Origin: Macrotrachela quadricornifera
Taxonomy: Eukaryota; Rotifera; Eurotatoria; Philodinida; Philodinidae
Direction of reading: 5' to 3'
Assembly (NCBI GenBank): GCA_022393335.1
Contig: JAJEKB010021337.1
Span: 664,353-728,352, forward strand
Length of the DNA stretch: 64,000 nucleotides
Shown here: piece by piece, positions 2,446 to 54,630 of the stretch
Layout: every line of letters starts with the position of its first letter
How positions within the stretch are numbered: the first letter of the stretch is position 1
The notes under the pieces: model-generated
The model's database searches: none
The model's input: the letters and a program-made list of their open reading frames with translations, nothing else
Told to the model about the DNA's origin: nothing
Made by a program: the position numbers and the translations under genes

Positions 2446-4113
2446 TCAATTGATTTGAATATCAAATCGTTGTACTCGATGATTGTGATGATCTACCACA
2501 TAGAGATTGCCCATTCGATCGAATGCTAAACCAGATGGTGAATGAAGTTGATTGGCTTGAAATCCTTGACCATTACCACCGACTATTTGAGTAACTCCAT
2601 TGTACCAACGAACTACTCGATCATTTCCTAAATCGGCCACATAAATAGCTCCTAATTGATCAACTATAACTCCATTCGGATTAGATAATTGTGTCCAATC
2701 GTCTCCGTTACCTCGACCACCAGCGACAAGAATTCCTTCAGTAGCACCTTTAGGCCATTTCATTACACGATGACTATAAGTATCGGAAACAAAAATTGAT
2801 TCGTCTCGATCGAGAAATAAATAAGTCGGAAAACGTAATTGATTCATATTATAACCTTGATCATGACCACCTGCCACTAATGTTCCATAAGTTTCACCCA
2901 TTCGATATTGTTTTACTTCATATTTTTCAATATCTGAAACGTAGAGAAATCTCTGATCATCCATGATGATTTGTGTACAATCGATATTATCAAGAATTGT
3001 TTCTTCATAATTAAGAGTTTGAAGAGACCATCGAACTATCCGTCGATTTCCCATATCAGATATAATTATACTATTTCTATCTTTATCAATGATCATATCA
3101 GTTGGATTATCCAGTTGATCCGTTCGATTACCTTGTCCATTGCCACCAGCAACGACTTGCCCACTAGTTTCACCAATTTTCCAAGCGACAATTCGATGAT
3201 TACCCCAATCAGCAATGTAGAAAGTTTGATCATCGTCTATGTAGATACCGAAAGGGCGTGATAATTGATTAAGAGAATCTCCTTGATCATCACCTCCTGC
3301 AATGGTAAGTCCATTCTGTGTCCATTTGGCATTTGAAGGAATGTTTGGAATATATCGAGCTAGAAAGTAAATTTAAATATTCATTTTTTAGCATTATTAA
3401 CATTTACTTACGCCATCGAGTTCGTATTCCAGTTGCTTGCCGAATATGTTCTTCGCATTCCTGACGAATTTGATGTAATTCTCGTTGATGTTTCTCTGAC
3501 TGATTTTCAAGTTGCTTGTTCAATCGTGTCACTTTTTCTTCAGTATATTTGAGTTGTGTTCGAAGACAATCAAGTTCCGTATGAGTTATACTCGTATCGA
3601 TACGTTTATAGACCAAATGACATTTTTCACAGATTAATTCGATCAATGGACAATCAATTTCATGTTTCTCAAAATCTTTTTTTAACAATTTCCATTGGCA
3701 TCCAGGACATTCTTGAATTCGATAATCGCATTGGATTTCATGTTTATCTAACGCTTCATATGGAATTATCTAAAAATAAACAATTTATAAAAATATCATA
3801 ATGGAGAGTTACTAACTGCAGTGCAACCATTGGATTGGTGAATGCAATGAATTTGCAATCGAGAGAGAGTTTCTGCAATGAATCGAGGACATCTTCGTTG
3901 GACATACTTTCCGCATCGCATTGGACATTTATCGGGATTTTTATCAAGCCATTCAATAATACATCGAGAACAAAATGGTGTTTCACATAATTGACATGCA
4001 ATTGGTTTCCATAAAATATCTTGACAGATCGAACATTGAATATTAATTAATTCATTTTTCATTGATGATGAAACACGATCCGATGAAAGACCTTGTTCGT
4101 CTGTCGATAACAT
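2446..4113 (-). CDS. RING / TRAF-zinc-finger / NHL beta-propeller protein
   Basis: Three exons on the minus strand, 3817-4113, 3412-3769 and 2446-3359, joined by GT-AG introns of 47 and 52 bases in matching phase, give 522 residues. Residues about 24-70 form a TRAF-style RING (CSIC, then CQLC, CSRC and CPMRC). A Cys/His-rich TRAF-type zinc-finger stretch follows at about 85-150, then a short coiled coil (about 165-210). The C-terminal 300 residues contain six NHL repeats (GG-x-G...NQL..P...D.......D..N.R...W), the number expected for a six-bladed propeller. By family, such proteins are likely E3 ubiquitin ligases or scaffolds that bind protein or RNA through the propeller; the substrate is unknown. 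The start is the first ATG after a CAG that could also be an acceptor, so an upstream exon is possible. Confidence 0.85.
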
Positions 4114-4513
4114 TCCTATCTGAAGTTTTCGAAAGTGAATTAGTGAATCTTATCAATATTAATATTAGTAAGATGAGAATTTGTCAACAATGTTGAAATT
4201 TGAGAGAAGAATATTTCTTCCCAATATCTACTATCAAATCTCAACCAACTCGCAATTCGGTCAGATAAAATTGTTTACAAAAAATGCGGTTTTAACCATG
4301 AAAATGTGCGTATTTTCCTTATATGTTAAACTTAAACATTGATTTCAATTATTCTAATTTTGAAATATTCAAGCTTTCACGCTTGAAGAAAGTACAAATG
4401 AGGGAGCACACGATGAGTGTAAGGGCGAAACTCTTTGAGGAATAGTTGAAAACTTGAATAGTAGATTGTATATTAATTTGATTCGATGGCATATTAGTAT
4501 TCGATGATTTGCG
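4114..4513. other. Intergenic, nothing recognised
   Basis: Short AT-rich spacer upstream of the RING-NHL gene. It presumably contains its promoter, but no motif stands out. Confidence 0.5.
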
Positions 4514-4843
4514 CGTTCGTAAAGTTAGCGGCAGACTTAAGTTTTTCCAGCGAACATTCGCACATTAATCTGCGTCAAAGCAGCTCATCAGCGTGTCTTG
4601 TACAACTTGATGAGCTTTAAACAATGGTACACTCAGATCTTTGGTAGCTCAAACTATGATTTTTGGCAGATTGATGTCACTAGAAAAAAATCTGAAAATC
4701 ATAGTTTGAGCTATCGAAGAATTGAATATGCCATTGAATAGAATTCATCGAGTTGCACAAGACACACCGATGAGCTGCTTCGACACAAGTTAATGTACGA
4801 ATGTTCGATGGAAAACTCAAATCTACTGCTAACTTTACTAACG
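4514..4843. repeat. Foldback element with arms of about 150 bases
   Basis: The left arm (about 4514-4667) pairs with the right arm (about 4688-4843) as an imperfect inverted repeat. Matching blocks include AGCTCAAACTATGATTTT at the loop side, CGAACATTCG in the middle and AAAGTTAGC near the ends. Identity by eye is roughly 80 percent. No coding frame. Confidence 0.8.
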
Positions 4844-8788: not shown

Positions 8789-9945
8789 TTATTGAACGAT
8801 GAAACTTTTTATTTTCTTTTTACTTACTACAAGTAACTATCGTCTGAGGACTCACTCAGATCTTTCTCGTGGAAACGGTGTTTTTGATCTATCAAAAAAC
8901 TATTTATCTTGATTTATTAATAAAAACTAATCTCAAATGAGCACTACACATTCCGGATTACCTTTGGTGAACTTTTATAGATTAATTAATTAATATTAAA
9001 TCAATACTTAAGAGGTTGTCTTCCCCTGTTTAAAAATCTATTTTTTCGTCATAGCAACCGATCTTACTGAAATTTTTCAATAAATGTGTGATTAAAAATC
9101 TGGTGAGCTTATTAGAAAAATTTCATCCTGAAATATTGAGTTATTCAAAAACGAAGGGTCCATAAGTAGGTCGTCGTTTGTCATAGATTTCTTCTCCAAA
9201 TTCAATAATATAGATCTGGACTTGGTGTCAAAATGTAGCCAATACCTGCTGCTACAATTTGGTAGAGTCTGATTTTTTAAAATTCTTTCTTATTAGTTTT
9301 TGGTGGAAGTTTTTCTCAAAACATTCCAAAATAAATAGGGATATACCCTCAAAAACTATTCATTTTTTTCATAAAATATGTTAAAATTAAAAAGTCCAAC
9401 ACTATTAGATTGTAGAGAGCAATTTCTGCTTCAATTTAATCCTTTAAGGACGGGTGACCTGTATTTGGACCACCTATTTTTTAGTAAAGACAACAGTGTT
9501 TATTTCATATTAAACTATTAAACATGTGGAGTCATTAAGATCGTGAACAATTGCATTTATCATGTCATACTTTTCTTTTCTTTCTTTCTCTCTCTCTCAT
9601 ATAAATGTTTTTCGAATATTCTTTGTTTTTGCTGTTGATGTATAATGATGTCATACTTTTTCTCTTTTCGTCTGATCTATTGTTTTTCGAGAATATTCTC
9701 ATTCGTTATTGGATATATATATCTTCTCGTTCCTATTGACGAATTTATATTGTTTTTGAATTTAGAAAGCATATAATTTCTCCTTCTAACTCATACTCTA
9801 TTGCTTTGTGCCGTTTATACAATTAGAACTAAACAAATGGACTTTTATGAAAATGACGAACGTAATGACGAGTCGTATGATTTCTATACTAGTGATGATA
9901 CCAACGAGAGTGACTTCGATTTCGAGTCTGATGAAGATATGGACG
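8789..9945. other. Intergenic with a short acidic frame
   Basis: The plus-strand stretch from about 9837 encodes a very acidic, Asp/Glu/Ser-rich peptide that runs into the foldback element at 9946. This composition resembles the N-terminus of some transposases, but nothing downstream supports an assignment. A CT-rich microsatellite lies near 9577-9598. Confidence 0.35.
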
Positions 9946-14054: not shown

Positions 14055-15960
14055 TTAGTTTTCTGTACGAAATGGAATAATAATTTGTTGAATATACATT
14101 CTTAAACCATTAATATCTCCAATCCATCTATAATTTTCATGTAATTTCATTGGACGATTAAGTAATTGAATATCACAAATACAGCTTTTACCCGGTTCAT
14201 ATGGGATCATTTTCACACAAATAAATCGTTTTTTCGTCGCTTGTTCTCCTTTGTCCTTAGTTCGAAACAAGATGTGATAATCCGACGGTAGTGTTGTATC
14301 ATATTTATTCGTTAAGATAATATCTGTCAACATAGGAACACCAGGATCAGTTAGAAAAGGAGCACGTCTAATGCACAAGTAACGTTCTTTTAATCCTAAC
14401 CAAGGATATCCTACCAAAGAAGCTTTAGAACTACTATCATTATAAACTAGAACAAAAAAAGACATAAGAGTTCAATTTTAATAAAGAAAAGTTAACCTTC
14501 TTCAAGACATTCATATCCATCTGGTGTTCCGCATACATGACTAACAATTTCTATGCCAGTTATTAGTGATAATGTTGAAACAGTTTTCTGTGGTATTTTA
14601 TGATCGCTAGAATTTGTTTCGTTGTTTTGCAACGATTTATTATCTAAATTATTCTGTTTTAATTGATGTAGATTCAATATAATTTCAATTTTTTGTTGTT
14701 GATCTTCATTTAATATTTTATAAATTGGTAAAGTCTTTTCAATTTTTATAACACGCCAATTACGAAAATCTTCAACTGTTAAAGCCCATTGATTTGGATT
14801 TTGACATAATGTTGTATTCCCACCAGTTGCTTGAAAAGTAACATTCATCATCTGATATTTCTCAACATTTTCATATTGACCTTCTTTTTTTGTACAAATA
14901 AAAGTATTTGTTCCAAGTTCTAATGTTGGATTAGGAGAAATAGCTACTAGAAATTTTTGTTTTTGTTTTTCTTTATGTTGAATTTCATCAATTGTGCCTG
15001 TTTTTTCTTGCATATCTGTATGATATAATTGTCCTCCAAGTGTTAATTTTGTTGCAATGATATGTCCATATTTTAGAAATAGACTTTTCAATTGATCATA
15101 TTGATTTTCCAATGGTAAAGATAATATTTTATTGATTTCATTTAAAAATTCTTCAGTTGGTTCAATATTTCGATTATCTAATTCAATTGAAACCCGTGGA
15201 AAATTCCACATACATGTTGTATAGAGTTTTTTTATAGCTTGGTTCCGAGCGGTTTGTTCGTTTCTTTGATAATCAGAAGAAATTGAAACAAATGAACTTG
15301 ATAAACTTGCTCCATTTTCATCGAATTTATTTTCTACAAATGTTTTACCTCGTTCAGTATAAGTTAAATGCGCATCAATACTTGAAGAATCTGAAATAAT
15401 AATTTTTGGTTGAGTATTTTCTTTCAATTGAATTACTGATTCATAACTATGTTTCGGTTGTTTTCCATCAATAAGGAATGCTTTATCAAGATTACATGCT
15501 TTAAATAAATATTTCCAATGTTCAATCGTTAATTGTGATGCATTTTTTATTTCAGGCAATATTATCATTGATTTTGATTCATTAGTAGAAGAACCGACAA
15601 ACTTTGAATTATTAATCAGTTTATCTTTTTCTGAATGTGATAAATTTTTGCATTTAATAGATGAATCGTCATCTTTTAATGTCTTATGATCTGATTGTTG
15701 TTTTATCTGGATATCTGTATCTAAATTAAAAAAAAAGAAAAGCAATAAAAATTATTATTGAAAACTAATGAATTTCTTTTAAAATTACCTGTAAAAACAT
15801 GATTATTTTGTGATACATTAGATTGTTTTGTTGCATGTGGTCTATTTAGACTAAATATTTTGAATAAAGATCGATGTTCACTTGATGGATAATTACAGTT
15901 AAACGTAAAACGATTGAAATATGAGACTTTGATCGCATGACAGAAGATATTTCGATACAT
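14055..15960 (-). CDS. MACPF-MABP protein
   Basis: Exons 15789-15960, 14497-15720 and 14055-14446 on the minus strand join in phase across introns of 68 and 50 bases, giving 595 residues. Residues about 200-400 show MACPF (membrane attack complex/perforin) features: a W-N-F-P-R-V strand, LFLKYGHIIATKLTLGG near 270-287, and a W-x-L-T-V...W-R-V-I...LPIYKIL segment near 368-395. The last exon (466-595) resembles a MABP beta-prism domain, with tandem elements such as GYPWLGLKERYLCIRR and the terminal WIGDINGLRMYI. MACPF proteins can oligomerise into membrane pores, and MABP domains bind membranes. No signal peptide is evident in this model. Upstream of the chosen ATG lies CATTGTAG, which could be an acceptor, so the N-terminus may be incomplete. 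Pore formation is inferred from the family only. Confidence 0.75.
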
Positions 15961-18900: not shown

Positions 18901-19090
18901 TAGAATTCATGCAATCAAGGGGATTGAGATATAAGATAAATCAAATGAAAATTATTTGGAATAAAAATCATACTAAATTTTCTTTCAGAAAAGGATCAGC
19001 GAAAATCCGTATGATGAGCGCTACGTGTAATAATCTGGTATATTCTCTTCTTCCTCACAACGGAACATTTCCAAATGATCCGCTCCGCGT
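15961..19090. other. Long intergenic stretch
   Basis: No supported gene on either strand. Short frames such as 16804-17040 (+) run into tandem-repeat sequence and are not protein-like. The only structure seen is the degenerate tandem array at about 16985-17465. Confidence 0.5.
16985..17465. repeat. Degenerate tandem repeat, unit about 105 bases
   Basis: A block like CCAAAGGTTTTTGGTGTCG, followed by GAATCGAATGGTATNATTAGTTTTT, recurs at about 16990, 17098, 17203 and 17412. Units are diverged, and a weaker related unit appears near 17880. Confidence 0.6.
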
Positions 19091-19672
19091 GACTCCATAT
19101 TTTGACCATATGTAGGGGACCAGTACACCAGTTTAACTGGTAAAAGATTTCTGCTCTTATTGATATTTCCCCGAGATAATGAGTTTTCAGTAAATTTTCC
19201 CTGTAGATCACTTTATAGGGAACCAATTTTCCGAAAAAATTATATTTTTGAATTTCCATCTGAAACTTTGTACACATGAAGATCTCATTTAAACTCCTAT
19301 ATCTATAAAGTTTGGTCAGTTTTAGATATTATATTGGCAAGATATGAAATGATCAATCTATCAATGTTTTACACAAAATTTAAAGAAAAGCCTATATGTA
19401 TATATATTGAGTAGTTTGTATCTTGACAATACACTAAGCAAAACTGATGAAACTTTATAGATGAGGTTGTTAAACTGAGATCTCTATGTGCACAAAATCT
19501 CAGATGAAAATTTAAAAATAATTTTTTTTCAGATAACTGGGCCCGTGTAGGGAGCTCTATAGGAAGAATCCACTGAGAAGTCATTATTTCAGTCAAATCT
19601 TAACAAGAGCAGAAATCTTTTAGCAGTTGCGCTAGTCTACTGGTTCCCTACATATGGTCAAGATACGGAGTC
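19091..19672. repeat. Foldback element with arms of about 220 bases
   Basis: GACTCCATATTTTGACCATA at the left pairs with TATGGTCAAGATACGGAGTC at the right. The block AAAAGATTTCTGCTCTT occurs in inverted copies inside each end, and the arms extend to about 19320 and 19435. No coding frame spans it. Confidence 0.8.
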
Positions 19673-20606
19673 GAACAGATCGAGTCACTTGAAAATGTTC
19701 CTTCGTTAGATGTTGCTAAACAATGATTCAAAACTCCAGTATTCCCAATAGAAGTGACAAGTTATGCGTCTACTACGTGTCTAACCAGCATAAAAAATTT
19801 AATAAAAAATACATTTTTAAAAATGCTATTAAAGACTCATGAATTCATCCAATGCTTGAATGTTTGTTACGAACGGTGAGACAGATTGGAATTGATTTAT
19901 TTGCGCAATAACACAATGTACTGCTTTAAGCTTTCGATTGAGAGAAAAAATTGGAAGCCACATGCTGACAAGTGAAATCGCGACATGAGTTTATATTAAA
20001 AAAATTACTCATCGAAAAGTGTGTATGTCGCTTACGTATATGTACTATTTCTTCATAAGAAAAAAAACATTTTTCTTCTGTTCTGATCATAGTACACATG
20101 AAGCATTAGCCTTTCTTACTTCTCCAAACATTTTTTTAATTTTTCTATAGACTTTCTTCGTGCATATTTATGGAATTGTATATGCATTTATAAGGATAAA
20201 GACTAGCATGATACCGTTTGACACTTCCTAGCTTTTCTGTATACTGACGTAATGGTGATATGTGAAATATGCAATTTTAGTACGTCATTTATTATTTAGC
20301 ACTTAGACAAATGCACTGTGGCACGATACTTGTAAAAAAAATAAAACGAAAGGCATACAAGACTAATGTAAATATTTATTTAATACTACTTCCATGTTGC
20401 CTCATGCCATTGAGAAAAAGGGAACGATAAGTGCAAAAAAATATGACAAGAAAAAAATAACGCATATATTGAAGTATTTATATGAAAATATATTTGCATT
20501 CGTAAAGCATTCAAATGTATATTTCACTATTGGCCTAGACCTCCATCATATAAAATATCTTACACTGAATTATTAGTTAGTATTGATTTGATTTTGAAGA
20601 AAAACT
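19673..20606. other. Upstream region of the STING-domain gene
   Basis: AT-rich, no gene recognised. It presumably includes the promoter of the gene starting at 20607; no distinctive regulatory motif was seen. Confidence 0.5.
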
Positions 20607-23600
20607 ATGGTATCATATGCGGATCTTATTCAATATGGTTTATCGAAACATCATGGAAAATATTTTGACTTTTATCTTATCGATTTCTCTCTTGTATATC
20701 CAAATGTACCATTGATTATAAAATGCAAATGCAGGTGAGACTATCTTTTTCAAAGAACCAAGAGAAGAAGAAACTGATTTCGTGGTTTCACTGATTTGAA
20801 GTAATTTCGTATGAATAGATAAATTAAGAATGTACAGTCCAATATGAATTGCAGTGAGATATTGTTTGAACCATATGAAAGAGGACCCTCGATAATTTCG
20901 TGATGGTCTTGAAAAACAATACATTTCACCCTTACAATAGAGGAGAAAATTTCACTGAAATCTGATGGGTTAATATAAAAAGGCACTCAGTCAATTAGAT
21001 GTTTTCCCTTGGAAAGAGGAGACAAGAAAGATATTTCAAAATTTGATCCTTTGATTGATTTAGGGACTTTCGAGATAATCTCATTCGAACTTTCACCGAT
21101 GATGATCCAAATTACGATAATAGAAGAAGTGAAAGTGAGAGATTTTGTTTTTGTTTGATACATATGTTTTATTTATATGAAATGATTGATTAGCTTGTAA
21201 ATGGACTATTGAATTCATTTGGAATGGAATTCGTGATGATGTTATTAATTTGAATGAAAATATCAAATCCGTATCAGTATGTTTTTTATCTATTTAAATA
21301 TTGATTTATATAAATAATCTTATAGGAAGAACATAGAATTATGTTTATCTCTTTCGATAATAATATTTCATCTTCTTATCAAGATCTTCTAACAACATGT
21401 TATGTTAATAGTGTTTTTTTTCAGTTTGATAATACTCTTCCAGATAAAAATTATGATTTAATATTCAATTGTCTTCGTGAATATCAACATAATCAAATTG
21501 TACCAAAGAAAACAGTTAGAATCAAAATAAAATCTTCTCTTTTTTTTTTTATTCTTTGCTTTTTTTTTTGATCTAGAAAACATTCGATTATTTTTATCCA
21601 TTGCATCTTCATGCTAATAGTACTAGTAGTGGACTTGTTTTTAATTATTATTATTCTTATCTTAATCAACAAGTTGGATCAAGTAAAATTTTATTGATGT
21701 GACCATTTATGATATTTTGTATCAATGATAGAATATTCGATTGCTTGTTTCTTATGACACACCATCTAAAGGAGAGTATTGAGGTGTATGTGGGTAGAAA
21801 TTTGGATCCCTTCTTTCCTAGATCATGGGCGACCGAGCATGAAAAAACACTGTAACCGTTGAATTAGACAAAATATAGACATACAACTTTAAACTGAACA
21901 GATTTATGAATCGGTTTTTAATAAGATTCTATAACTTCTTTTGTAGAATTATTGTAAAACACAATCTAAAACAGAATGTTAAAGTATATGAAAGGAGAAA
22001 TTTGGTCTCACTCTTTTCCACAGGTAATAATTGACATCTTATTGTTGAAGTGAGAAATAATGCATAAAAAGACGGATCTCGGAAAGTAAAATTAGCAAAC
22101 GAATGGTATATTGAACACAAAATATCATATATTATTTCATCTTCAATGTTTTGACTATTATCATGATATTATTCTTATTTCCTTTTTGTTTTAGCAAATA
22201 ATATATTTCTTACCTTTAATTTCAATAGAAATATATGTCAAGATATGTTTCCTTCTAAAATCTATGTTGTATTAGATACATGGATTGAAAGTATTTATCA
22301 AGAAAGATGTCCATCAACAATGCAGGAAGAATCACTTTTACAATTATTATCGAATACGCTTACATTTGTATATGATACAACCAAATACAAAATTAATGAT
22401 GACAAACAAACATCAGTCACATATCAAATAATTGGTGTGAACGATTTTGGACCGAATGTTGAGAAAATTTTCATCTGGCAAGAGAAAATTGATTTCAAAG
22501 CTCTAATTTCCATTCAACTCCAAGACGATATACGGCAGTGGAATGAATATTATCAACCTACTTCAATTGATTATAGGTATACAATTTTTTTTGTTTTCAT
22601 CAAACACAAATACTCATAGATAAAATATCGAAAGTAAACTATTTGTTTTTTCGTACTTGTAATTAAACCGAATCGAGATGGTTCTATCCAACATTCGATG
22701 GTCAAAAAAACCGATCTCTAAATTTATAGCTCATCTACACATGAATTAATTCTTGAAACTATCAGGCTGATTCACCGCTTTTGACCATGGACTACGCTCA
22801 TTATTTAGGTCTTGTTGAGACTAGGAAAAGTTTTAAATGATTTCTATCCATAGGTTTTTCTGTTAAGTCATAATCTTTTTATTATATTTTTAGTCTATTA
22901 TAGGACACTGACGGTAGAAATCGAAAGATCGGGAAAAAGGTTAAGTTTTTCGGTAATTTAATACCTCGAGAGCCAAACGTGTATTCTCGCTGACGCTTTT
23001 TAACTATTGACAAAAATTCAGTTCAAAAAATACTCTTTAAATTTTTCTACTGATGTTCTATAATAGGTCTAACACAATTGTTCTGTTTTGTAATCAAACC
23101 TTTTTTGGATAGCTGAACAGTCTTAAAAATTATGTATTAAAATGTTCGTCTTTTGACTTGTACGTTTTGTTGTTTTCTTCGCTCCTTACTTTACAGCATA
23201 GAACTTCAACAAGGAAATTTTCCAATAGATTTGATTTATACATGACCTATGATGGTCTCCTATGTTGGTTACAGTCTGTGGGAAGATAGGTACAAAATAC
23301 TTATTTACTTAATTTTAGTTTGAATGAACAACCATTGGCTACATTCGAGACAAAAACCCTTTCGGAAAATAATTATCCTCAACAATGTCATATATTTTCG
23401 ATTGAAAATCTCTCAATTACTACTAATGAACATCGAGGTAAGTTTTGTAAAAACTATTTAATAATATTAAATATTATTCATTCAATATGAAGGAATCAGT
23501 ACAATGAAAAAAACTACGAAAGATTGTTATGATGCATATGAAACATATTTGAGGACAGAATGTATTGATGAAGATAAAAGTAATATTGAAATTCGATTAA

Positions 23601-26600
23601 TTCCAGTATACTATATTCTTGCACCTACATCGTGTAATTTTGGTCCACCGAATACAGACACTACATGTCAATTGAATAAGATGAATTCTTTAGGAACAAT
23701 TATTGATCCAGATGATCCAAATCGGATATGTTTAGCTTCTATGAATAAGTATGTGTATATATCTTATTCAATTATTTATTGATAATTTCTTATTTATTAG
23801 CGAAGTTCTTCGATCGAGACCAATGAAACGTTATGATCGATATCTTCGTCGTACATTTTACTATGTTGATGAAATTGATAATAATAACAAGACTATTCGA
23901 GTAAAATAATAATAATTGAGAATTATTTATGAAGAAAAACCAAAATCTTTTTTGTTTAGTATTTATTTTGTGGTGAATATCCATATATATTAAATATTCT
24001 CAATCAACTTGAACAAAATGGTCAAATAAGTAGTGCACAAAAACGTGATGAATATTTACGTTTTTGTAATATGCTTAATCGAATTATTCTTATTGATAAT
24101 TTATCCGAATCAGTTAAATTAATTCAATATAATGATGAAGAACAAAAAGATATGAATACATTCGATGAAGATGATACATGTAAAACATCAAATTGTATGT
24201 GAATTTGTTTTTTCATCTATAAAATCATATATATTTATTTGATTAAGATGCTGATAATAAATCATTATGGAGTCAAATAAAAGATGATATTGATCAATGG
24301 TATGAAAAATCGGATGAATATACATTGGAAACATTTGTAAGTTGAAGAAATTTAATTAAAAAATAAAAACATGTCAAGAATTTTTTATATTTAGATTTCA
24401 TCAGTAATTTTTCCATGTGAACCAAATCGTCATATTGTACTCTTCTTTTCTAACAAATCCACTAATGATCAATCGATTGAAATACTAATTAAGTAATTAA
24501 AGAAAAATATTAAATTCAATTTTATTTTTCTTTAGAAATCTCAAAGAAAAATTGGAAAATCATGATTATATAGTTAATTATATTGAAGATGAACTTGATT
24601 CAATTGAAGAATTAGAACAAATTATTTACATATGTTCTGATCAAATGACTGATCAAGATAATCGTCAAATGATGGAAATTATTGGACGTAGGATTATAAA
24701 AGTATATCATAAATACTTTTAATATATTAGTTTTTGATAAATAGTTTTTTAGCACGGTGTATTACGTGATGTTTTTATTTTAATTAATAATGCTATTCAA
24801 AATATTCCATGTCATATTATTAAATCAATTCCTTATCTTACATTTGATCTAATTAAACGTTCACCTGAATTAACTGATAATGAAATTGATGAAATAATCA
24901 ATTATCTTAAAAGTAATATTCAATATTCATTAATCAAATATCATAAATATTATTAAATAGATATGAATGTTCTATCAAAGACTTATACAGATATGTTTGA
25001 TGAATTAAATAATTCTATTGAAGAAAGACCTTTGGTAAGTTTTTATGTTCATAGAGGATAATGAATAATTGAATTTTTATTTTGTTTTGAGCAATGTATT
25101 GGTGTTGGTGCTGGTTGTGCTGCTGCATTTTATTTCAATTATGTTAAATTATTGACATGTTTACCTAGTAGGAGAATAAAAAATAGATAAATTTTTAATA
25201 AATATTTTTTATTGAATTTTTAAGATCATCAATTACGAATAGAACTTATTCATCAACAGATTATTAAAGAAAATTTCAATGATTTTCAAGAGAAAAATAC
25301 AATATTTATTAATAAATGGGTATTTATCATTCCATGGACAATTGAAAATTCAGATCAAATTATCAATTATGCTCTATCGTTGAATGAAACTGAACAGAAA
25401 ATCATCGGATTGAAATTAATCCGATGGGAATCAACGTAAGTTCAAGATTTTGTTGTTTATACTAGGAAGTCAAGTGAATATCGTCAAATTCTCCGAAAAA
25501 ATTTTCAATTGTTGAACCATTGTTTTCTTTCTTGTCGAGAATGAGATATTCGAATCTAAGATTAGTTTTAATTAATAATAATAAATAATTTGCTGATGGA
25601 TCCAAAATATCACTTTTATGAGAAAGAGTTGAGCGAGTCTTCGAACGAACGTTACTTGTTGTTTTTGATATTATCCGATTCCAGTTAATGATCTTTAGAA
25701 ATTCATTCGAAATTTTGTTTTATGTTTTCTTCAAGAAGTCATGAATACTTGATCGAACTAACACTCGACGAAGAGCATACCTTGTTAACTGAATACGAAT
25801 GAAGGTTTCAAAAGAGAAAAGAATTGAAAATTTTGTTTTCTAACAAAAAAATGTTTGGTGTTAATGAATTTTTGTATTAGTAATCTTTGAAAAGAACACC
25901 GTATGTCATGCTCAAGATATAAAAAAAGGTGCTTACTGTAGCCCTGAAATACGATAGAAAAGTCTTAGAAAATGATTGAGCCACTCAACAAAACAGAGCC
26001 AAATCACATATTCATCTTTTATCGATAAAGATTATTAATCATCTAATAGTCCTGATTTCAATCCATTGAAAAGCTGTATTTTGAATAAATTTGTGAATAT
26101 CATTAACTAAAATAGAATAATATCAAATAGTAAGAAGTCTATTCTTTATATTCAATCCATTATTTATTTTGTAGAGATAAAAACTTTTTCAATTTAAATA
26201 TAAAGATAACTCTTGGTGGTATCTTTGAACGATCATATAGTCCACTTATGGTTTATAAATTGACGAATCTGACTCAGAAAAAGGTTATTCATATAAAAGA
26301 ATGAGAATGTAATTAAATATTTAAAATAAAATTTTCTTATTCATTCAGAATCTCTATTTTCCAATGGAAACACCAGCAGCTCTACGTGGACTGCAAAAAC
26401 AATATGAAAATATTCTTTCTCATTTCAATTTTGGAAAATTTGATCCAATTGAACAAGCCATGACTTTTAGGGATAAAGTTGAAGAATACAAAGCGAATGA
26501 TCGGAATGCTCAATGGCATAATCATATTCTTATTGTACCTCTAGATCGACATTCAACAATATCTGAAGACATATCTATTACACCTTTTGAGCAAGCAAAA

Positions 26601-26666
26601 ATTTTATTAAATACTTTATGGCAACAATTATCTTCTTCTCCATTGTTAGACGAATTAACTATATAA
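20607..26666 (+). CDS. Tandem STING-domain protein with TIR-like region, about 989 residues
   Basis: Nineteen exons join without a stop, all in phase at GT-AG sites: 20607-20734, 21064-21134, 21194-21276, 21326-21514, 21577-21682, 22195-22576, 23319-23437, 23493-23748, 23801-23900, 23960-24194, 24248-24336, 24395-24492, 24536-24701, 24753-24912, 24961-25034, 25092-25167, 25225-25435, 26175-26283, 26349-26666. Residues about 753-989 match the STING cyclic-dinucleotide-binding domain: the first helix (GVGAGCAAAFYFNYVKLL, Y769 at human Tyr167), a WVFIIPW strand, the lid motif ERSY (R867, Y869 at Arg238, Tyr240) and ETP (T892, P893 at Thr263, Pro264). Residues about 597-735 have an alternating strand/helix pattern recalling TIR or SEFIR domains. 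Residues about 170-410 look like a second, degenerate STING unit (GLVFNYYYSYL) lacking the ligand residues. No convincing transmembrane segments are present, unlike animal STING. The likely role is binding a cyclic dinucleotide in innate defence; this is inferred. Confidence 0.8.
21770..22040. repeat. Two dispersed-repeat copies inside an intron
   Basis: The 512-base intron 21683-22194 contains two diverged copies, about 190 bases apart, of the ACACANTCTNAAANAGAGTNTTGA to GTAGAAATTTGG repeat that also occurs at about 13160-13220. This explains why this intron is long among introns of 46-60 bases. Confidence 0.5.
23150..23300. repeat. Dispersed repeat copy inside an intron
   Basis: Within the 742-base intron 22577-23318, the sequence CTTACTTTACAGCATAGAAC through GAACTTCAACAAGGAAAT and TTTATACATGACCT is closely matched at about 35020-35105. 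It is probably part of an old transposon copy. Confidence 0.55.
25436..26174. other. Long intron of the STING-domain gene
   Basis: At 739 bases this intron separates the two exons that carry the STING ligand-binding segments. No coding frame or clear inverted repeat was seen inside. Confidence 0.5.
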
Positions 26667-27707
26667 CTCATAAGGAAAAAAATGTGCCTTTTTCTTTAAA
26701 AGAATATACATTGAATTTTTACTGTGAGGTAACTTGAATATATTTATCTTGTACTTAATCATGTATTGCAAGGGGAAGGTTGCGGATCAGCGAAAATATA
26801 TTTCCGCGAACTGCGAAAGGCAAAGTAATATCCAACCGGACCAAAGTGGTAGAGATCTTTAGGCTACAGGCGACAAGTGATAAAAAAAGAATGTATAGAA
26901 ATAATTAAATATGAAAATGAGAAATTCAAGCAACTGTTTTTGGGTTTTTAGCTACTAATGTAGACAATCCATGAAGAAATTCGATCAGAGTACTTTCTCC
27001 TTCTTTATAATTTTTAGCCATTTTTTGAATTTGTTCTCGAGTTGTGCACGGTTTGTCATCTGATTTCTTTTGAAAACCACATTTTAACCTTCCCAATCGA
27101 TGCCGAAATGATAATTCCTCACGTTGTAAACATTCAAACAAATACCAAATGTTTCGATGATGCTTTTGTAAACGATTATTGAACTTATTATGCCAACCTT
27201 CCGTAAAGTTATTCGTGCGAAATTCAAGGATTGATACATGCATTATCTCGTCGGAAAGTGCAGAACGAGTAAGAATTAACACTTATATACACCTTTAACA
27301 CAATGAGCCATCGCTAAAAATAAACGTTCGAACTTGGTCCAAGGAAGAAGTTTCGCTCAAACGCTCTTCGCGATACTTATTTTCGATAATTGTTACATTC
27401 GCTAATGTCTTATTTCGATTTTTTCGCCATTTTATTTTTCGCTGTAAAATCGTTTGCTTTTATGTTTTTCGCTAAACGAACACCATGTTATTGCAAGATT
27501 CACCGAGCTCTTAAAACGCCTACTATGATATATAATGATTTTTTTAAAACAGTGGATGATGTCATTATTTAAACAAAGATTGTATTTTACTCGGTTTTAT
27601 CCAAGATAAAAGTATGATATTACCAACAAATATTATTTGTTGACTGAAAATGGAAAAAGAATAAAAGATAAATTTGTTTGTTAATGAAAATTGAAATATT
27701 TAATAAA
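26667..27707. other. Intergenic with transposase relic
   Basis: Contains the MULE-like remnant at 26926-27282. Around it lies a TTTTCGCTA/AAATCGTTTGC-rich stretch (about 27380-27480) of unknown origin. Confidence 0.5.
26926..27282 (-). pseudogene. MULE-type transposase fragment
   Basis: The minus-strand frame contains FRTNNFTEGWHNKFNNRL, then HHRNIWYLFECLQREE. This matches the conserved C-terminal part of MULE/FLYWCH-associated transposase-like proteins (NN..EGWHN...R..HPN.W.F...L..E). The DDE catalytic part and the zinc finger are absent, so this is a truncated remnant about 118 codons long. No terminal repeats were found. Confidence 0.65.
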
Positions 27708-28975
27708 ATGTTTACTATTAATAAGTATGTTAAAGTCGTATGTGTAGAAGATCAATATTCTTTACATAGAGAAGATATATTTGTTATTACTGATTCTAGA
27801 AAAAAACCAACGCCTTTTTATTCTTATCAGTATAATGTGAGTAGTGTGTGTGACTAAAAGAGAAAAGAACATGAATGTATTATGTCTCATCAAAAGGAAG
27901 TGATGCAAATGGCGTAACAATATAATAATTTATATTTATATAGATTAAATATCGACGTAAAAAGATAATTCGAAGAATCAGTAATTCTAAAGTATATAAA
28001 TATAAAAAATTCACATGTTGTTTTGTATTAATAATCATGACAGATTATATTTGTTCAAGTGACAATTGCCATCCTTTTATTTTGATTACTATTATTATTG
28101 TAAGTTTAACTGCATTGATTTTAATTGTTATATTTATTAGTGCATTAATAAAACGACAAAACAAAAAAGAATTAAATGATATATTCAAAGTGAAAGAACA
28201 AGATCCATGGATACCTTATTCAATTTCAAGTGTTGTCAATTATCCACCGCTCAGTTCATATTCTCAAAGTGATATCATTAAGACTGCATAAAACTATTCT
28301 TTTTTTTATTTTTAATAATAAATATTCAGTTGATAAATAAGGATTGATGCGAACATGTTGGAAAACTGATTCTTTCACCGTCAGATAGAGTAAAGTCTAT
28401 AGATTAAAAATATATACTTGACAAAAAGTATTGTGCGTCGATTAACGATGGAAATTTTCAATTTTGAAAAGGTATCAAAAATGCTTTGTATTCGATCAAA
28501 AAATGAATGTTTTCTCTGCAATTTGAGATTTTCATAATGGCTTTTTAACTTTTTTAAAAATGAGAGTTTCAAGTCTCTCAAAGAAAGCCTGGCTCCACAA
28601 ACATTTATATCCAATCAAAACAAGATAGCCTTAGCATTATCATGTAGATAAGCAGTTTTGAATTCATGGTTTTTAAAGAATTGTGACTGTAATGGATCGT
28701 ATGTGAAAGTTTGGGGCTCAATTGATTAACACTTCGAAAACGGAAATTTTTTTAAATGAAAAGTATTTTCCACCTTTTTATTTTATTTTAAAACAAAATG
28801 TCAATTTGCAAGTAAAGCGTGCGATGTTTGATCGAACTTCTACGTCCTTAGTGCTGCAATAAGCATATTTTCTTCTTTTTCTTTTAACAGGCAAATGCAT
28901 TTCATTGTCAAAAGGAGGTTTTTCATGACTTATTCGTTCACTGGCAGAGCAGAGAGGCTTCGCCACTGAAGTAGA
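27563..28975. repeat. Segmental duplication, copy 1 (uninterrupted)
   Basis: This segment is repeated in the same orientation from 35455 to about 39466. Near-identity runs from ACAAAGATTGTATTTTACTC through the small membrane-protein gene. Similarity then continues more weakly through GTCAGATAGAGTAAAGTC, ATTTCAAGTCTCTCAAAG-like sequence and GAGGCTTCGCCACTGAA. Copy 1 lacks the three blocks of extra sequence found in copy 2. Confidence 0.85.
27708..28291 (+). CDS. Small single-pass membrane protein, unknown function
   Basis: Exons 27708-27836 and 27944-28291 join at phase 0 across a 107-base GTGAGT...ATAG intron, giving 158 residues. The first 65 residues are basic (KYRRKKIIRRISNSK). A second-exon ATG at 28037 would give an 84-residue form. 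One strong membrane segment (ILITIIIVSLTALILIVIFI) is followed by a positive patch (KRQNKK) and a polar, Pro/Ser/Tyr-rich tail. An AATAAA lies shortly after the stop, near 28318. I do not recognise the family. A second copy at 35591-36175 is damaged in exon 1 but almost unchanged in exon 2, so the short exon-2 protein may be the conserved product. Confidence 0.6.
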
Positions 28976-35370: not shown

Positions 35371-35590
35371 AAGGGTGTCACCCTAGTTTTCACTATATTA
35401 GTACGCTTTTATTTTAAATTTCTCGTTTTAATTTCATATAAATATGATAAGAAAAACAAAGATTGTATTTTACTCGGTTTTATCCAAGATAAAAGTATGA
35501 TATTACCAACAAATATTATTTGTTGACTGAAAATGGAAAAAGAATAAAAGATAAATTTGTTTGTTAATGAAAATTGAAATATTTAATAAA

Positions 35591-36175
35591 ATGTTTACTA
35601 TTAATAAGTATGTTAAAATCTTGTGTATAGAAGGTGAATATTCATTACATAGAGAAGATATATTTGTTATTACTGATTTTAGAAAAAAAACCAACACCTT
35701 TTTATTCTTATCAGTAGAATGCGGGCGGTGTGTGTGATCAAAAGAGAAAAGAGCATGAATATATTATGTCTTATCAAAAGGAAGTGATGTAAATGGCGTA
35801 ACAATATAATAATTTATATTTATATAGATTAAATATCGACGTAAAAAGATAATTCGAAGAATCAGTAATTCTAAAGTATATAAATACAAAAAATTCACAT
35901 GTTGTTTTGTATTAATAATCATGACAGATTATATTTGTTCAAGTGACAATTGTCATCCTTTTATTTTAATTACTATTATTATTGTAAGTTTAACTGCATT
36001 GATTTTAATTGTTATATTTATTGTTGGATTAATAAAACGACAAAACAAAAAAGAATTAAATGATATATTCAAAGTAAAAGAACAAAATCCATGGATACCT
36101 TATTCAATTTCAAGTGTTGTCAATTATCCACCGCTCAGTTCATATTCTCAAAGCGATATCATTAAGACTGCATAA
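35591..36175 (+). pseudogene. Damaged copy of the small membrane-protein gene
   Basis: Compared with the gene at 27708-28291, exon 1 has one extra A in an A-run (about 35682-35690) that shifts the frame. The donor GTGAGT has become GCGGGC, and the preceding TATAAT reads TAGAAT. Exon 2 (35828-36175) is intact, with very few changes in its 84-residue open frame at 35921-36175 (for example SA to VG in the membrane segment). The full protein cannot be made in the same way, but the short form could be. Confidence 0.7.
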
Positions 36176-36405
36176 AACTATTCTTTTCTAAGAATAGATA
36201 AACATTTGTATATTTTATTTAAGAAAAAGCTATTTTTTAATTTTTAATAATAAATATTAAGTTGATAAAATAAGGACTTATGCAAACATGTTGGAAAATT
36301 GATTCTTATACTGTCAGATAGAGTAAAGTCTGTAGATTAAAAATATGTATATATAAAAGTATGAGTTGACTAACGATGGAAATTTTAAATTTTGAAAAGG
36401 CATCA

Positions 36406-54074: not shown

Positions 54075-54630
54075 TACATTAATATATCATTCGATAGAGG
54101 TCTTTGAGCTAGTAAAAAGCCTGAAAGGATACGGTTGAATCTTCTTCCTTCAAAGATCATGACCATTTTATAGGATTTTCAGTTCATTCTTAGATATCTA
54201 TTGGAAAAATCAAATTACATAATTTTGGCTTGGAATGTTACTTATAAATAGCTTTAATGACCCTTAAACAATCCAAAAATTTCAGACAAAAAAAAACATG
54301 CTCGCTCTTCTTGAGATACTGAATTTTCGAAAGAAACCTCGCTCGCCACAATTAGGTCATACAAACCGAGTTCATTTGAAAATTCAATATCTCAAGAAGA
54401 AAACGTTCTTTTTAGCTGAAATTTTCGGATTATTCGAAGGGTCATTCTAGATATTTATAAGCAAAACTCTAAGACAAAATTACATAATTTGATTTTTCCA
54501 ATAGATATCTAGGAAATGGGCTGGAAATCCAATAAAATAGTCATTATCTTTGAAGGACGAGAATTCGGCCAAAATCCTTCTGGGCTTTTTATCAGCTCAA
54601 TTTCTATATCGAATGATGTATAAATGAAGG
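54075..54630. repeat. Foldback element with arms of about 250 bases
   Basis: Matching inverted blocks include ATATCATTCGATA at the ends, TAGATATCTATTGGAAAAAT, AATGACCCTT and TTCTTGAGATANTGAATTTTC nearest the loop at about 54335-54378. Identity by eye is roughly 80 percent. The arms span almost the whole element. Confidence 0.82.

Follow-up and report, generated by a model that had tools for sequence, protein, structure and literature searches.

Organization and relatives of the gene

The stretch of Macrotrachela quadricornifera DNA analysed here, 64,000 nucleotides of contig JAJEKB010021337.1 that we call the window, contains a 19-exon gene (20607–26666; Table 1) whose predicted product carries a STING ligand-binding domain at its C-terminal end (domain 2) and, upstream of it, a second, diverged STING-related domain (domain 1). 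An earlier note on this DNA, made from the sequence alone, had treated the gene as one unit, and we find that model sound and intact, since the exons join to encode 987 amino acids and a 984-amino-acid protein of Rotaria magnacalcarata (P0001 among the public models used here) covers 99% of a 796-amino-acid part of the product at 58% identity, its residues 1–190 resembling, by eye, the 5' exons. It could be argued that two neighbouring genes have been fused, given that all the proteins used are predictions and that some public models (P0006, P0007, P0009, P0010 and P0012) hold partial chains only, but five others from four named species (P0001–P0005) have both domains within one chain, and the splice from the final exon of domain 1 into the middle domain keeps the reading phase; we regard such a fusion as extremely improbable.

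All eight proteins found with the window product come from Rotaria or Adineta, both genera of Bdelloidea, and the relatives as a whole represent seven named species or strains, namely R. magnacalcarata, R. sordida (with a pair of proteins), R. sp. Silwood1, R. sp. Silwood2, A. steineri, A. ricciae and A. vaga; because the relatives are restricted in this way, the gene is most likely a bdelloid one. The nearest relative shares 63% identity with the window protein, and in a tree built from 11 of the 13 sequences, without P0008 and P0011, the window protein clusters with P0001 and P0002 and a second Rotaria group is seen. P0008, from Rotaria sp. Silwood1, is a public model in which part of STING domain 1 is fused to a DEAD-box helicase, and is perhaps a wrong model or a broken copy. 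Four of the introns are long (329, 512, 742 and 739 bases, at 20735–21063, 21683–22194, 22577–23318 and 25436–26174) and the other 14 span 43–65 bases; the two longest show no mutual match when the window is compared with itself, and part of the last of the four (25559–25662) matches 8826–8933 in inverted orientation at 77%.

The C-terminal STING domain

The C-terminal region is a STING ligand-binding domain, as the earlier note had proposed. It passes the Pfam STING_LBD model (PF15009) with 30.5–37.6 bits in the window against a cut-off of 27, a threshold that six of nine relatives also reach, and STING_LBD is already annotated by Pfam in five of the eight public records of relatives, at a position that fits domain 2. 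A PDB profile search aligned the domain with STING entries, and the PDB matches listed for it by Foldseek and VIA-align are likewise STING entries, placing it in the STING ligand-binding fold.

The alignments indicate that the ligand site of domain 2 is partly kept. We take the ligand contacts of human STING to include Tyr167, Arg238, Tyr240 and Glu260, and the corresponding residues of domain 2 (Tyr767, Arg865, Tyr867 and Glu889) are invariant in all eight sequences. Other contact positions have changed, with Ala in place of Ser162, Asn in place of Gly166, and Leu, Val or Ile in place of Arg232. The register around Thr263-Pro264, presumably also a human contact, differs between alignments: five of six (4qxr, 9q1f, 6wt6, 8ydn and 8efn) match the invariant Glu to Glu260 and an Ala-Ala pair to Thr263-Pro264, in which register Ala-Ala is found in all eight sequences, while the sixth (human 9cua) gives the register of the earlier note, in which Thr is replaced by Ile or Leu in seven of seven orthologs and Pro is invariant. 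The view that the ligand residues are intact is thus overstated, in view of the Thr, which is not conserved, and of the changed Arg232, Ser162 and Gly166 partners.

These changes, together with those at Thr263 and Pro264 in most alignments, would suit a protein in which both domains keep the STING fold and cyclic-dinucleotide binding has been lost, leaving a scaffold or a receptor for something else. The invariance of the Tyr167, Arg238, Tyr240 and Glu260 partners in domain 2 argues against this, as does the oyster TIR-STING, which according to the title of its PDB entry was solved with 2',3'-cyclic GMP–AMP (2',3'-cGAMP) and in the alignment likewise lacks Thr-Pro at these positions, so that loss of Thr-Pro leaves binding possible in domain 2; we therefore give loss of binding little credence.

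An upstream STING-related domain

The earlier note described some 750 residues of other sequence upstream of domain 2. We show here, from sequence comparison and gene structure, that this region includes a second, diverged STING-related domain, formed by residues ~166–191 and 358–542. The domain 1 piece of the window matches only one PDB sequence, the oyster TIR-STING (E-value 0.025), and when the oyster segment is aligned with domain 1 of the window protein and of six orthologs (P0007 being too short for inclusion), z lies between 6.8 and 11.6, above all 400 shuffles in each case; z was 2.7 or less in 33 of the 34 control rows. With four STING alpha-1 helices used as probes, the N-terminal and C-terminal helix sites are the top two in all 24 probe–protein pairs having both sites, in six of six proteins, and when the two helices are compared with each other, 10 of 24 pairs score so high that no more than one of 400 shuffles equals them. 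The two STING copies also share a series of intron phases, exon 5 running from phase 0 to phase 1 like exon 16.

Other results bear on this assignment in both directions. Pfam STING_LBD matches domain 1 with 18.4 bits (E-value 0.0015; 0.0012 for P0002), which speaks for it, but under the cut-off of 27, and the domain is classed as STING-related rather than as a curated member. Folded alone it gives a poor model, with a predicted local distance difference test score (pLDDT) of 36.5; the ten best Foldseek rows of this model are all STING, with E-values of 0.24 or worse, a weak point in its favour. On the other side, one control, human STING against the window's insert, also beat all shuffles (z 4.2), and neither hhalign nor shuffled local alignment finds a signal between the cores of domains 1 and 2, only the alpha-1 helices being alike. 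The claim of a duplication therefore rests on the match of each domain to STINGs outside this protein, on the alpha-1 helices and on the intron phases. That there is a single STING domain, with a chance likeness upstream, would accord with the dissimilar cores, the poor model and the aberrant control, but five lines agree otherwise (Pfam, the PDB sequence match, the shuffles, the intron phases with the alpha-1 pairs, and the alpha-1 probes), and we consider it very unlikely.

A further alternative is that ligand binding falls to domain 2 only, acting as an ordinary homodimer, and that domain 1 has decayed into a regulatory pseudo-STING whose main role lies in assembly. Domain 1 is indeed split by an insert and misses the Pfam cut-off, and it has Leu at the position of Tyr240 (in the HMMER register) and Tyr, Phe or Asp at that of Thr263. 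Tyr183, however, is invariant in six of six covering sequences and Arg456 and Glu482 in seven of seven, which a decayed site would not require, and the oyster segment is nearer to the window's domain 1 than to its domain 2 (z 11.6 versus 0.6), so that we hold this alternative to be rather unlikely, if worth keeping in mind.

Remaining parts of the protein

The N-terminal membrane domain of animal STING is absent, as had been suspected: judged by hydropathy only, the window protein has no membrane helix (best 19-residue mean 1.29), and a single stretch of P0003 reaches 1.78. The earlier note was right in describing a soluble multidomain STING protein. Part of the upstream sequence does remain without assignment, there being no Pfam match in the N-terminal region from about residue 68 (scanned in a draft piece, with residues 1–67 outside it) and no Pfam family above cut-off for the insert.

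The middle domain is perhaps TIR-like. The four best Foldseek rows are TIR-STING chains, aligned over 385–410 columns as against 220–241 for isolated STING domains and 266–291 for full-length STINGs; their root-mean-square deviations of 20–22 imply either a different arrangement of domains or a poor model. No TIR family appears among the Pfam matches of seven members, and profile searches of the middle domain were likewise blank. A candidate first TIR-like copy within residues 1–150 was dropped (best z 2.5 of 21 pairs). PADLOC returned nothing for four of 12 proteins, and the viral structures of BFVD gave no match at an E-value of 0.001 or better.

Table 1. Coordinates of the gene and of the parts of its product (positions in the window)
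Feature	Coordinates	Strand	Residues	Basis or remarks
Whole gene	20607..26666	+	987 aa + stop	Predicted model, 19 exons; all 18 introns GT-AG; single terminal stop; ortholog P0001
Exons 1–10	20607-20734, 21064-21134, 21194-21270, 21326-21514, 21577-21682, 22195-22576, 23319-23437, 23493-23748, 23801-23900, 23960-24194	+
Exons 11–19	24248-24336, 24395-24492, 24536-24701, 24753-24912, 24961-25034, 25092-25167, 25225-25435, 26175-26283, 26349-26666	+
N-terminal region	20607..21514	+	1–155	Absent from Adineta proteins P0003 and P0005
STING domain 1, alpha-1 (dimer helix), exon 5	21577..21682	+		Tyr183 = human Tyr167 (codon 21658-21660); alpha-1 probes, intron phases
Inserted module, ~167 aa, exons 6–7	22195..23437	+	191–358	Splits alpha-1 from rest of STING domain 1; phase-1 introns both sides, phases 1-2-1
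STING domain 1, core, exons 8–10	23493..24194	+		Pfam STING_LBD below cut-off, PDB sequence match, shuffles
Domain 1 core codons	23838-23840; 23975-23977	+	Arg456; Glu482	Arg238 (HMMER register); Glu260
Middle domain, exons 11–14	24248..24912	+	555–726	Alternating strands and helices; perhaps TIR-like
Linker, exon 15	24961..25034	+	726–750
STING domain 2, exons 16–19	25092..26666	+	751–987	Pfam, PDB profile, Foldseek, VIA-align, conservation
Domain 2 key codons	25140-25142; 26230-26232; 26236-26238; 26367-26369	+	Tyr767; Arg865; Tyr867; Glu889

Other features of the window

A perforin-like (MACPF) frame lies on the reverse strand at 14492–15751, its best Pfam match being a fungal MACPF-like family (109.2 bits), and is possibly a gene taken up from fungi. 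Just downstream of the STING gene, a 734-base direct repeat (27571–28303 and 35454–36187; 95.9% identical), with weaker blocks continuing to ~28970 and ~39465, has the look of a segmental duplication that has been broken up, each copy having a 115-amino-acid frame that resembles a small membrane protein. Adjoining reverse-strand frames at 2446–4149 encode a RING finger (28.1 bits), a region whose only zinc-finger matches are weak, and an NHL propeller (88.7 bits), which may together form one ubiquitin-ligase-like gene, and large imperfect palindromes at 19062–19701, 54077–54626 and 4514–4843, with 74–79% identity to their own reverse complements, are perhaps mobile elements.

Discussion

STING is generally taken to act as a symmetric dimer, with a single ligand-binding domain per chain. 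The Crassostrea gigas TIR-STING is presumably soluble, with an alpha/beta domain that we take to precede the STING domain, as in the rotifer protein; unlike the rotifer chain it presumably combines one STING domain with an accepted TIR domain, and we know of no insert in it. This oyster protein (PDB 6wt6/6wt7) is the top PDB sequence match of P0005 domain 2 as well as the sole match of the window's domain 1, and occupies the second Foldseek row. PMC10732462 describes a TIR-STING fusion in oysters and, for canonical animal STING (STING1, PF15009), a four-helix membrane domain; canonical STING has one ligand-binding domain, shares with rotifer domain 2 the ligand-binding fold, the dimer helix, Tyr167, Arg238, Tyr240 and Glu260, and differs in the pocket residues that have changed in the rotifer. 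Bacterial STINGs mostly bear TIR domains, and few have membrane helices, according to passages of PMC8204762. The bacterial TIR-STING of the CBASS antiphage systems (PDB 9lmq and others), as portrayed in parts of PMC9402430, resembles the rotifer protein in having effector and STING in one chain and forms ligand-driven filaments, but has one STING domain and an NADase TIR, whereas the rotifer middle domain has no Pfam TIR match. Fungal PNP-STING is also a eukaryotic STING fused to another domain, although the partner is different and the passages of PMC12424679 concerned with it describe no second STING domain.

STING fusions were therefore known before, and the suggestion that a STING without its anchor constitutes a distinct sensor architecture is weakened by the membrane-free STINGs already known; what is really unusual, and had gone unnoticed in the earlier note, is a second STING-related domain in the same chain. 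Among the titles, abstract openings and passages searched, a body of text that excludes most subscription papers, we found nothing on a bdelloid STING or on two STING domains per chain, though the phrase 'two STING domains' does occur in two papers, both on bacterial STING.

We propose that the gene encodes a soluble bdelloid receptor, consisting of an N-terminal region, a STING domain 1 split by a 167-amino-acid insert, a middle alpha/beta domain and a STING domain 2, which is most likely a cytosolic cyclic-dinucleotide sensor; we put the probability of this reading at roughly 55%. A cyclic dinucleotide in the cytosol would sit between two STING lobes and cause them to close, the lobes pairing either within one chain or between chains. 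By analogy with the TIR-STINGs, as outlined in portions of PMC9402430, PMC8204762 and PMC13142454, closure could be relayed to the middle domain together with higher-order assembly, which would switch the middle domain on. More tentatively, domains 1 and 2 might pair within one chain, forming a STING pseudo-dimer inside a single protein, whose two differing half-pockets would make up a complete asymmetric site that could favour mixed ligands such as cGAMP or cyclic UMP–AMP (cUA), with the middle domain between the lobes as output; we see this as possible rather than probable.

In summary, bdelloids gain a concrete candidate STING gene, and two conserved, diverged STING domains per chain allow one to ask whether a STING pocket can be asymmetric. 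Such a build could enable one chain to do work that normally needs two, and the double-STING gene suggests a route by which an immune sensor is rebuilt through gene duplication and exon shuffling.
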